DNA from: Thioalkalivibrio sp. ALE14
GTDB lineage: Bacteria > Pseudomonadota > Gammaproteobacteria > Ectothiorhodospirales > Ectothiorhodospiraceae
DNA: 64,000 bases
NCBI RefSeq assembly: GCF_000376845.1
Contig: NZ_AQXY01000028.1
Coordinates: 124,001 to 188,000 of the forward strand
Reading direction: 5' to 3'
Shown here: in pieces, positions 51,860 through 64,000 of the stretch
How the letters are laid out: each line of letters begins with the position of its first letter
How positions within the stretch are numbered: position 1 is the first letter of the stretch
Notes under the pieces: generated by a model
What the model was told of the DNA's origin: nothing
Database searches by the model: none
The model's input: only the letters and a program-made list of their open reading frames with translations
Program-made: the position numbers and the translations under genes

Positions 51860-51959
51860 GGATCACTCGCTCCGGCGAACACTCGCAGGCGCGGACGCCA
51901 CGGGTTCCCCGTTGTTGCGTTCAGGTTAGGAGGGCTTTACGGCCAACCGGGCGAACCGG

Positions 51960-52409
51960 TCAAGAATTCCCCAGCGCGGACCGGACCTTCTGACTCACCT
52001 GGCCCATGTCGGCACGGCCGAAGACCCGCGGCTTGAGCACGCCCATCACCTTGCCCATGTCACCGGGGGCCGCAGCGCCGGTCTCGGCGATCGCTTTCTG
52101 CACAAGCTGATCGAGAGCGGCCGCATCCAGCGGCTCGGGCATGTATTCCTCGATAATGGCGACCTCGGCGGCCTCGCGCTCGGCGAGGTCCTCGCGACCG
52201 CCCTTCTGGTACTGATCGATGGAATCGCGCCGCTGCTTGAGCATGCGATTGAGGATCGCCAGCACGGTGTCGTCGTCGGCCTCGCGCCGCTCGTCCACCT
52301 CGAACTGCGACACCTCGGCCTGAATCATGCGCAATGCGGACAGGCGGTCCTTCTCCCGGGCCCGCATGGCCTGCTTCACATCATCCTGCAACCGGGCCTT
52401 GAGCGACAT
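51960..52409 (-). CDS. yqeY: GatB/YqeY domain protein
   Basis: 149 residues of the YqeY family: SLKARLQDDVKQAMRAREKDRLSALRMI, then ILNRMLKQRRDSIDQYQKGGREDLAEREAAE, then YMPEPLDAAAL, and GKVMGVLKPRVFGRADMGQVS near the end. It resembles the tail domain of the amidotransferase subunit GatB and may bind tRNA, but its role is not established. It follows rpsU by 39 bp. That gap holds a 7-bp hairpin (52424-52430 with 52437-52443). In other gammaproteobacteria dnaG follows yqeY; here dnaG is 10 kb away. Confidence 0.93.
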   Translation of the reverse strand: MSLKARLQDDVKQAMRAREKDRLSALRMIQAEVSQFEVDERREADDDTVLAILNRMLKQRRDSIDQYQKGGREDLAEREAAEVAIIEEYMPEPLDAAALDQLVQKAIAETGAAAPGDMGKVMGVLKPRVFGRADMGQVSQKVRSALGNS

Positions 52410-52448
52410 TGTTGGGTCCTCGGGTCCGGGCAGCCACCCGGACGGGGT

Positions 52449-52664
52449 TCAGTACAGACGCACCCGGCGAGTCATGTCGCGGGAGTTCTTCTTCAGCTGG
52501 CGCTTCACTGCGGCCGCGGCCTTGCGCTTGCGCTCGGTGGTCGGCTTTTCGTAGTACTCGCGGCGGCGGACTTCCGCGACCACACCGGCCTTCTCGCAGG
52601 TGCGCTTGAAGCGGCGCAGGGCAACCTCGAAGGGCTCATTCTCACGAACTCGTACGTGCGGCAT
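52449..52664 (-). CDS. rpsU: 30S ribosomal protein S21
   Basis: 71 residues, the standard bS21 length. It contains [24 protein letters not shown] and the basic tail [19 protein letters not shown], followed by [18 protein letters not shown]. bS21 is a late-assembling small-subunit protein near the anti-Shine-Dalgarno end of 16S rRNA. It is classically the first gene of the macromolecular synthesis operon with dnaG and rpoD. Here it is followed only by yqeY. It is divergent from aroB. Confidence 0.97.
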
Positions 52665-52752
52665 ACAATCTCCGAAACGGATGCTGGATCATCTCGATCA
52701 AAAACAACAAAACCGGCCGCCAAACACTCCGGGCGACCATGCAGAACTCCCT

Positions 52753-52780
52753 ATGGTAATCCAACCCGCACCAATTGCAA
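52753..52780 (-). promoter_or_regulatory. Possible sigma-70 promoter for rpsU-yqeY
   Basis: On the minus strand, TTGCAA (52775-52780) and TACCAT (52753-52758) are separated by 16 bp. Each matches the sigma-70 consensus at 4 of 6 bases. It lies in the AT-richer part of the 192-bp gap between rpsU and aroB, about 90 bp before the rpsU ATG. Confidence 0.35.
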
Positions 52781-52856
52781 AAGTCCGTGAAGCGATCCGC
52801 AGCATGCGGGACGCCCGGCTTACGCCACCGTCGACCCGCACGCTATGATGACGGGC

Positions 52857-61832: not shown

Positions 61833-61857
61833 CCCGCCACCCGGCGGTACTACGATT

Positions 61858-61885
61858 CGGGCCCCTCACGGGGCCCGTTTTGTTT
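61858..61885 (+). terminator. Rho-independent terminator after gltB
   Basis: Eight-base GC stem: 61858-61865 (CGGGCCCC) pairs with 61870-61877 around the loop TCAC. It is followed by TTTTGTTT. It begins 26 bp after the gltB stop and ends the aroB-dgt-damX-gltB transcript, separating it from dnaG. Confidence 0.85.
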
Positions 61886-62020
61886 GCGCGGGTCAAAGTC
61901 CGTCGTTGCGGGCCCAACAGCAGCAAAGCGGCGCTGAACGGCCGCCGACCGGCCCGGGAGCCAACGCAGCGCGCAATCTTTCGTGCCTGACGCCATCCCG
62001 CCATCGGAGGCTCACGGATA

Positions 62021-62200
62021 CCGATTGCTTCGTCGTCCACGGCTCCTCGTAATGACCGGGAGGTAGAAAGTAGCGTCATCGCGAGGAGCGAAGCGACGTG
62101 GCGACCTCCACGAGCAACCCCGGCGTCCACCGGAAGGCCACCGGGACTCGCCCGGGGCTTGCCGCGCCGGCTGCGGCGTCCCGCAATGACGTGTTGCGGC
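62021..62200. repeat. Composite interspersed repeat, inverse of the copy at 4972
   Basis: In the 432-bp gap between gltB and dnaG. The left half (about 62022-62058) is the inverse of the TCATT-CGAGGAGCC type. The right half (62073-62109) reads GCGTCATCGCGAGGAGCGAA then GCGACGTGGCGACCTCC, and matches the copy at 4972-5007 in 34 of 36 positions on the opposite strand. A third partial unit ends at CCCGCAATGACG near 62190-62201. The gap stretch 61886-62020 shows nothing I recognise. The dnaG promoter must lie in or after the repeats. Confidence 0.8.
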
Positions 62201-62264
62201 CCGACGCTGGGCTATCATGCGAACCTGACGACGAGCACACCCCCGAGGAACACCCGGCGACACC

Positions 62265-64000
62265 ATGGCAGGTCTCATCCCCCAGGCATTCATCGACGAG
62301 CTGCTCGAGCGCAGCGACATCGTCGAGATAATCCAGCGCCGCGTCAGCCTGAAAAAGGCCGGGCGCGAGTTCGCCGCCTGCTGCCCGTTCCACGGCGAGA
62401 AGACCCCGTCGTTCTACGTCTCCCCGCAAAAGCAGTTCTATCACTGCTTCGGCTGCGGGGCGCACGGCACCGCCATCAGCTTCCTGATGGAGTACGAGAA
62501 TCTGAGTTTTCCAGAGGCGGTGGAGCAGCTGGCCGAACAGGCCGGGCTCGAGGTACCGCGCGAGGCCGGAGGCGATGACAAGCGCGAGGCCCATGCTCCG
62601 CTGTATGACGCCCTGAACGCCGCCGCCGAGTACTACGTACAGCAGCTGCGCCAGACCCCGAAGGCGGTCGAGTACCTGAAAAACCGCGGCATCGACGGCA
62701 CCACCGCGCGCGACTACCAGATCGGCTGGGCACCGCCCTCGGGGCTGATCGAGGCCCTCAAGCCCCGCTTCACCCCGCAGCAGCTGGTGGATGCCGGCCT
62801 GGCCGCGCGGCGCGACGACGGCGGCATCCGGGAGCGCTTTCGTACGCGCATCATGTTTCCGATTCGCGACCGGCGCGGGCGCATCACCGGCTTCGGCGGG
62901 CGCCTGGTCGAGGACGGCGAGCCGAAGTACCTGAACAGCCCGGAGAGCGAAGTCTTCCACAAGGGCCAGGTGATCTACGGCCTGTTCGAGGCGCGCAAGG
63001 CGAACACCCGCCTGGACGACATCGTCGTGGTCGAAGGCTACATGGATGTGGTCGGCCTGGCGCGCGCCGGCTTCCGTCGCGCCGTGGCCTGCATGGGCAC
63101 CGCCCTGACCCGCGCCCATCTGGACAGCCTGTTCCGCCAGGTCTCGCGCATCACCCTGTGCTTCGACGGCGACGCCGCCGGCCGCCGCGCCGCGTGGCGC
63201 TCCCTGGCCGAGGCCCTGCCCGCGATCCAGGGCCTGCGCGAGGTTCGCGTGCTGTTCCTGCCGGAGGGCGATGACCCCGACAGCCTGGTGCTGCGCGACG
63301 GGCTGGACGGCTGGGAGGAACGCCTGGCCGGCGCCCTGCCCCTGTCCGAGACCCTGGTGCGGCTGCTGCGCGAGGAACACCCGACCGATACCGCCGAGGG
63401 CCGCACCCGCTTCGCCCATACCGCGATGAAGCTGGTCGCCACCACACGCGATCCACTGTTCCGCGACCAGCTGGTCGAGCGCATCGGCCAGGAAACCGGG
63501 CTGAGCCACGAGCGCCTGGAACAGGTCCTGTCCGAACAGCCCCCCGCACCCGCGCGCGGGGCCGACCCGGATGCGGGCGGCGAGCTGTCGACCCCGTCCG
63601 CCGGCGCCCCCGCACCCGCGGGTGGAGGGGAAAGCCCGCCGGCGCTGTGGGGCGCCCTGCTGGCCCGCGTGCTGCAACACCCGGATCTGGACTGGTCCCA
63701 GCCCGAATTCCGCCAGCTCGTCGAACTGCCCGGCGTGGCGGCGGCGACGCTGCGCGAACTCCTCGCGGCACTGGACGAAAACCCCGATCGGCATACCGCC
63801 GGGCTGCTGGAGCGCTTCCGCGACCAGCGCCACTTCCAGCGTCTGATGGCCCTGGCCCACCAGACGCTGGACGACGGCGAGGTGACCGTGACCCGGCAGA
63901 CGGCCCTGGACTGCGCCCGCCAGCTCCTGCGCCAGCACTATCGTTCGCGAATTCGTGAACTGACTCGCCCCGGCGCCGAGCTGGGGACGGAACAACGCGC
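62265..64000 (+). CDS. dnaG: DNA primase (partial, C-terminus off the right edge)
   Basis: 578 codons are visible from the ATG at 62265 without a stop. The zinc-binding domain has Cys40, His43, Cys61 and Cys64 (CCPFHGEKTPSF … FYHCFGCG). The RNA polymerase/TOPRIM domain shows YLNSPESEVFHKG, VVVEGYMDVVGLARAG and LCFDGDAAGRRAA. The beginning of the DnaB-interacting C-terminal domain is present before the window ends. Primase makes RNA primers at the replication fork. Its usual upstream partners rpsU and yqeY are 10 kb away on the minus strand. Confidence 0.96.
   Translation, partial: MAGLIPQAFIDELLERSDIVEIIQRRVSLKKAGREFAACCPFHGEKTPSFYVSPQKQFYHCFGCGAHGTAISFLMEYENLSFPEAVEQLAEQAGLEVPREAGGDDKREAHAPLYDALNAAAEYYVQQLRQTPKAVEYLKNRGIDGTTARDYQIGWAPPSGLIEALKPRFTPQQLVDAGLAARRDDGGIRERFRTRIMFPIRDRRGRITGFGGRLVEDGEPKYLNSPESEVFHKGQVIYGLFEARKANTRLDDIVVVEGYMDVVGLARAGFRRAVACMGTALTRAHLDSLFRQVSRITLCFDGDAAGRRAAWRSLAEALPAIQGLREVRVLFLPEGDDPDSLVLRDGLDGWEERLAGALPLSETLVRLLREEHPTDTAEGRTRFAHTAMKLVATTRDPLFRDQLVERIGQETGLSHERLEQVLSEQPPAPARGADPDAGGELSTPSAGAPAPAGGGESPPALWGALLARVLQHPDLDWSQPEFRQLVELPGVAAATLRELLAALDENPDRHTAGLLERFRDQRHFQRLMALAHQTLDDGEVTVTRQTALDCARQLLRQHYRSRIRELTRPGAELGTEQR

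Follow-up and report, generated by a model that had tools for sequence, protein, structure and literature searches.

Two described gene clusters and one described process come closest to the locus reported here: the macromolecular synthesis operon, which is the run rpsU-dnaG-rpoD; the run ponA-pilMNOPQ-aroKB-damX-gltBD-hemE of Pseudomonas and others; and the rearrangement of operons by inversion. The locus lies in a 64,000-nucleotide stretch of Thioalkalivibrio sp. ALE14 (the window; G000:C28:124001-188000, assembly 3.02 Mb, interior of the 327,659-bp contig C28), in which genes of both clusters stand in the order hemE< gltD< yqeY< rpsU< aroB> dgt> damX> gltB> dnaG> (> denotes the forward and < the reverse strand) and the obligate partners GltB and GltD, the subunits of glutamate synthase (GOGAT), are encoded apart. 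Relatives in which the second cluster is nested within the first resemble the macromolecular synthesis operon in beginning with tsaD< rpsU> yqeY> and finishing with dnaG> rpoD>, but yqeY and dnaG are ~13-26 kb apart, the interval being filled by pil, aro, glt and hem genes, and the window additionally has its rpsU half inverted. Their gene content is that of the Pseudomonas-type run, and so is the order within the ponA-gltB and gltD-hemE segments, whereas the nested form is circularly permuted at gltB/gltD, its hemE adjoining X210 or ponA, and in Thioalkalivibrio aroK is also cut from aroB. Operon rearrangement by inversion is recognizable in Thioalkalivibrio, where the rpsU..aroK block is reversed relative to its neighbor, but this inversion split neither gltB from gltD nor rpsU from dnaG. 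We consider it highly probable that the locus has a two-step history, comprising an old, permuted nesting followed, in Thioalkalivibrio, by inversion of rpsU...aroK relative to aroB...rpoD. Among the titles and abstract openings seen in the open-licence literature, none was found that describes this arrangement.

The nested order stands uninverted in a sister genus of the same family. Three genomes of genus group g4 (G043, G044 and G045) carry rpsU> yqeY> gltD> hemE> X210< ponA< pilM> pilQ> aroK> aroB> dgt> damX> gltB> dnaG>, with tsaD< just left of rpsU and rpoD after dnaG. In genus group g2, G007 has the nested order without gltB and gltD, complete save pilM; pilQ and aroK are separated by ~26 kb in G008; and the other members have the halves rpsU...pilQ and aroK...dnaG in different places or show one half. 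The junctions yqeY/gltD and gltB/dnaG are present in uninverted relatives and are therefore independent of the inversion in the window. Beyond the family, 12 class-level genomes from 11 other gammaproteobacterial families have the nested uninverted order (rpsU> yqeY> gltD> hemE> ponA< pilMNOPQ> aroK> aroB> dgt> damX> gltB> dnaG>, some without glt genes), seven of them with both gltB and gltD. Both junctions together with an intact aroK-aroB occur in G043, G044, G045, G121, G154, G155, G173, G179 and G182, and partial views of the nesting were obtained in G093, G102, G120, G174, G186 and G110.

These gene orders, and their distribution among the genomes read, are direct observations. Counted per locus, with a few records doubled (L098, L104, L120 and L132 are also among the G genomes), the nested loci have dnaG after gltB in 28 cases (13 in Thioalkalivibrio, 15 outside) and dgt in 2; the gene after yqeY is gltD in 26 (16 and 10, respectively) and hemE in 27, and hemE adjoins X210 in 45 and ponA in 9. 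Three new junctions with an otherwise preserved internal order are what a circularly permuted insertion should leave. aroK is followed by aroB in all 93 non-nested loci with aroK and in 36/36 nested loci outside Thioalkalivibrio, and gltB by gltD in 31/31 non-nested loci with sequence beyond gltB, a count that sets aside 6 contig ends and 22 loci below 50% identity, many of which also show gltD next.

The receiving operon was also surveyed in an even class sample of 184 genomes, of which 169 yielded a yqeY and 176 a dnaG; pairs were judged among the matches listed (150 for each gene). On this basis the two genes are adjacent on one strand in 101 of the 140 genomes with both; in the remaining 39 they lie 8-30 kb apart on one strand (14), on different contigs (20) or otherwise (5, the window included). 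All 14 loci with the wider spacing were read and 13 are nested (G007 and the 12 class-level genomes). The exception, G165, has rpsU yqeY hemE, a contiguous gltB gltD, ~6 kb of other sequence and dnaG (G165:C11:698500-718490; L185, L203), with aroB on another contig; it is the nested cluster either half dismantled or put together differently. Among the matches listed, 19 of 120 genomes (window and G007 included) have aroB on the same strand as dnaG and no more than 20 kb upstream of it, and none of the 19 has yqeY next to dnaG; 132 of the 150 aroB matches were used here, the 17 weakest and a second G148 match being left out, and inspection of the 17 by eye revealed no further case.

In outgroups the same genes form two separate units, ponA-pil-aroKB-damX-gltB-gltD-hemE and rpsU-yqeY-dnaG-rpoD. 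A scan of named records kept 80 loci from at least 590 matches, and many of these loci do not extend over the whole order; those reaching far enough mostly read ponA< pil> aroK> aroB> (dgt>) damX> gltB> gltD> hemE>, some without glt genes, and three are of the nested type (L123, L132 and L147). Nineteen further outgroup genomes comprise 11 with gltB-gltD and intact aroKB, three that end inside or just after gltB and five without a glt gene in view. The run rpsU-yqeY-dnaG-rpoD is contiguous in 19 of 20 genomes fetched, all picked for this adjacency except G175, which is the exception. In many outgroups the pil-glt cluster starts on its left side with X210; a gene left of X210/ponA, which we take to be maeB, is common to 12 outgroup loci, and the genes right of hemE are common to few. 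One genome (G133:C14:57506-75333; L194, L195) has tsaD and rpsU-yqeY-dnaG-rpoD intact with pilQ-aroK-aroB-dgt ~6 kb downstream on the same strand, so that the two clusters are close by and not interleaved.

The features of the window are as follows.

40656-41294, reverse strand: aroK, shikimate kinase (Pfam SKI, E 2e-50); outer end of the block inverted in Thioalkalivibrio, severed from aroB
41306-43438, reverse strand: pilQ secretin (Pfam Secretin)
43456-43998, 43998-44579 and 44579-45142, reverse strand: open reading frames (ORFs) presumed from the standard gene order to be pilP, pilO and pilN, with collinear homologs in relatives
45139-46227, reverse strand: pilM (Pfam PilM_2, E 3e-131)
46296-48731, forward strand: ponA, class A penicillin-binding protein (Pfam Transgly and Transpeptidase)
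48728-49360, forward strand: X210, conserved protein without an NCBIfam match, adjoining ponA in many relatives
49389-50456, reverse strand: hemE (TIGR01464)
50453-51859, reverse strand: gltD, small GOGAT subunit, apart from gltB (TIGR01318)
51860-51959: junction yqeY/gltD, read as inherited from the old nesting event
51960-52409, reverse strand: ORF that we take to be yqeY, from ortholog searches; its homologs adjoin rpsU in relatives, and the NCBIfam scan gave no match
52449-52664, reverse strand: rpsU, ribosomal protein S21 (TIGR00030)
52665-52844: junction rpsU/aroB, read as a product of the inversion in Thioalkalivibrio
52845-53954, forward strand: aroB (TIGR01357)
53938-55128, forward strand: dgt (NF002326)
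55140-57008, forward strand: damX-like gene (NF008153 in the C-terminal part, an ATPase model in the N-terminal part, both below the curated cut-off)
57369-61832, forward strand: gltB, large GOGAT subunit (NF008730, 2626 bits)
61833-62264: junction gltB/dnaG, read as inherited from the old nesting event
62265-64000, forward strand: dnaG, running off the window end (TIGR01391)

Genes, strands and coordinates agree with those of the initial annotation, whose gene order from hemE to dnaG is borne out by the ORFs and NCBIfam matches, damX with scores below cut-off. An ORF opposite X210 and three other ORFs matched no family in Pfam. Beyond the window rpoD comes after dnaG on the same contig (stretch L003: dnaG 6265-8052, rpoD 8292-10202). 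rpsU and dnaG are on opposite strands 9.6 kb apart, and the window thus lacks a contiguous one-strand rpsU-dnaG-rpoD. To the left of hemE sit aroK, pilQPONM and ponA, placing aroK 11.5 kb from aroB. This position of aroK, overlooked in the initial annotation, is the key to the real history of the locus.

AroB was sought in 47 genomes of the family and found in 44, and the stretches around aroB were read for the window and 40 relatives, including 25 of the 30 genomes in the genus group of the window (g1, Thioalkalivibrio). rpsU and aroB are head-to-head in 25/25 of these, window included (2.7 kb apart in G015), and no case of this adjacency was found outside g1 among the family, named and class loci read. 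Twelve close g1 relatives, assembled separately, share the complete gene order of the window, and G032, G039 and G040 have the same order over the part covered by their contigs. Misassembly, raised initially as an alternative, is very unlikely because the same order recurs in separate assemblies and the window lies inside a large contig. In all six g1 genomes with aroK in view (G000, G013, G014, G016, G039 and G040) aroK is at the far end of the reversed block, and in none of the six is it next to aroB. Nine deeper g1 genomes (G013, G014, G015, G027, G030 and G035-G038) have no gltD between hemE and yqeY, and in seven of them gltB is also missing past damX, the stretch being out of view in G027 and G030. 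The damX-dnaG spacing is 12.6 kb in G014 (G014:C1 3224490-3237093) and ~0.05-1.1 kb in G015 and G035-G038.

These orders suggest the following course of events. Step 1 would be an old event close to the base of a large gammaproteobacterial clade, in which X210-ponA-pilMNOPQ-aroKB-dgt-damX-gltB-gltD-hemE as a cluster landed between yqeY and dnaG of rpsU-yqeY-dnaG-rpoD, circularly permuted so that its ends were gltD and gltB. The new junctions would be yqeY/gltD, hemE/X210 (or ponA) and gltB/dnaG, splitting GltB from GltD and rpsU-yqeY from dnaG-rpoD, and leaving the joined runs rpsU-yqeY-gltD-hemE and pilM...gltB-dnaG-rpoD, which we predict to be transcription units. Formally this step amounts to two rearrangements, for which two routes were worked out on paper. 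The cluster could have been excised as a circle, reopened at gltB/gltD and reinserted, or there could have been two large inversions, one from gltB/gltD to yqeY/dnaG and the other from the left end of X210 to the right end of hemE. In step 2, on the stem of Thioalkalivibrio, the rpsU...aroK block (window 40.66-52.66 kb) would have been inverted relative to aroB...rpoD, breaking aroK/aroB and tsaD/rpsU and creating the head-to-head rpsU/aroB pair; gltB and dnaG are also farther apart in this genus, often with a terminator between them. A more specific version, which we consider less likely than not, has a whole housekeeping cluster of ~18-21 kb cut out as a circle that opened within gltBD and was captured in rpsU-dnaG-rpoD of the ancestor of the large clade. 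The supercluster would then have persisted with primase and sigma-70 directly behind glutamate synthase, and later lineages such as Thioalkalivibrio would either have uncoupled them through an inversion plus a terminator or have dispensed with the two halves of the split GOGAT while keeping a contiguous second gltBD.

Operon shuffling is common; two well-known clusters that interleave through circular permutation, an arrangement retained across many families, would be an unusual marker, a rare genomic change usable for gammaproteobacterial phylogeny. The arrangement makes testable whether long-term separation of the obligate partners GltB and GltD is tolerated, and whether replication and sigma-factor genes have been brought under the control of a metabolic operon. 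It also corrects the initial reading, in which one recent inversion of 10 kb, from yqeY to gltB, simultaneously disrupted gltB-gltD and rpsU-yqeY-dnaG in this lineage. Such a flip does restore two classical runs on paper, starting from an order that is real, but both junctions stand uninverted with aroK-aroB intact in the sister genus and in the genomes of other families listed above. The ancestor that it calls for, with aroB< beside rpsU> and gltB and gltD together, is in no locus among the window and 40 of the 46 other family genomes, the 80 named loci and the class loci read; the rpsU-aroB adjacency is confined to Thioalkalivibrio; and the inverted block visible against relatives is rpsU..aroK, on the other side. 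We regard the 10-kb inversion as highly improbable. The two operons did break in a linked manner, split gltB/gltD occurring only in nested loci among those counted, but the event, its size and its age were misjudged, and the two junctions that the flip repairs are the signature of the older nesting event.

On two gene trees the nesting falls largely on a single old branch that is moderately supported, though some genomes depart from this. Eight cluster genes (99 rows, FastTree) gave one clade in which 33/35 rows are nested, the exceptions being G159 and L097, with a support of 0.70 that becomes 0.943 when L122 is added. A quick IQ-TREE run on 42 chosen rows returned the same split (Shimodaira-Hasegawa approximate likelihood ratio test, SH-aLRT, 86; 3 changes), and a tree of tsaD, rpsU, yqeY, dnaG and rpoD (62 rows) separated 36 nested rows plus G123, G159 and G165 from 23 non-nested (SH-aLRT 81, 4 changes). 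We infer from these trees a single origin and, because the trees do not infer a root, take the direction of change from outgroup gene order. A nested order ancestral in Gammaproteobacteria, with the separate operons derived, would fit the unrooted trees and the many nested lineages; it is extremely improbable given that Pseudomonas (L103, L105, L119 and L125) and records titled as betaproteobacterial groups (L117, L153, L155 and L171) have gltB next to gltD after aroB, and that yqeY-dnaG adjacency is the majority state among the matches listed. Repeated origin of the nested order, or horizontal spread of the whole supercluster, would account for G123, G159, G165 and L097, which are not fully nested and fall among nested genomes, and for the moderate branch support. 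We consider it unlikely, as the junctions and the permutation point are the same from one nested locus to another, and the insert genes and the genes of the receiving operon give a similar split.

Several observations weigh against the two-step history. Support for the single branch is moderate; G123 (with intact rpsU-yqeY-dnaG), G165 and G159 fall inside the nested group on the operon-gene tree; L122, of standard order, is at the base of the nested clade and was inside it in an earlier 84-row tree; and the label "nested" covers partly seen genomes, G110 (dnaG elsewhere) and most of g2 with the cluster in pieces. An rpsU..aroK inversion should also have left conserved outer flanks, which were not found: the left flank of the block in g1 is snoaL/pfkB and not tsaD, tsaD is >100 kb away in 7/7 g1 genomes with both on one contig, and r14930, a gene beyond rpoD that G016 retains, did not turn up within 17 kb downstream of rpoD in G043. 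With tsaD distant and snoaL/pfkB in its place, at least one further rearrangement is needed after the inversion, and the relative inversion is all that the orders show. A rapZ-pfkB neighborhood lies left of the block, at window 36295-39493; in G016 rapZ is ~97 kb from pfkB, so that another rearrangement separates close relatives there, and rpoN-rapZ was rejected as the old left flank.

The right gap (61833-62264), initially described as a breakpoint carrying repeats and a terminator, does hold a terminator-like hairpin (61858-61877), together with a single copy of a GC-rich 18-mer (62081) that is dispersed in the genome. The terminator scan by itself proves little, since it found 4 sites over 11.2 kb where shuffled sequence averaged 5.2, but a hairpin with a T-run is at a similar place in 8/12 relatives. 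Scanned over at most the first 400 bases of the gap, the gltB-dnaG interval has a terminator-like hairpin in 9/13 g1 genomes versus 1/15 other nested loci (~0.04 expected per group in single-base shuffles); the gap measures 174-1477 bp in the 13 g1 genomes and 43-206 bp in the 15 others, and the shorter gaps give hairpins less room. The terminator between gltB and dnaG is thus mainly a Thioalkalivibrio feature and, since g1 is one clade, its gain may be a single change. The 18-mer has 9 copies in the genome (3 exact, 6 with one mismatch), another being at window 4982, and occurs in the gltB-dnaG gap of 4/12 relatives; with 8/12 lacking a copy in the same gap, it was rejected as a scar. Compared with one another, the breakpoint gaps share matches of just 8-10 bases. 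A consensus promoter scan found two promoter-like sites at 57230-57274, upstream of gltB (shuffle mean 0.4).

Each of the 18 family genomes that were searched and have no close (>70%) gltB contains a full-length gltB of ~44-49% identity, and gltD follows it in 9/9 read (G005, G007, G008, G010, G013, G014, G015, G036 and G046). This contiguous distant gltBD stands elsewhere in family genomes without split gltB/gltD (L248-L255, L258-L260); G010 has two, and G011 has both gltB types.

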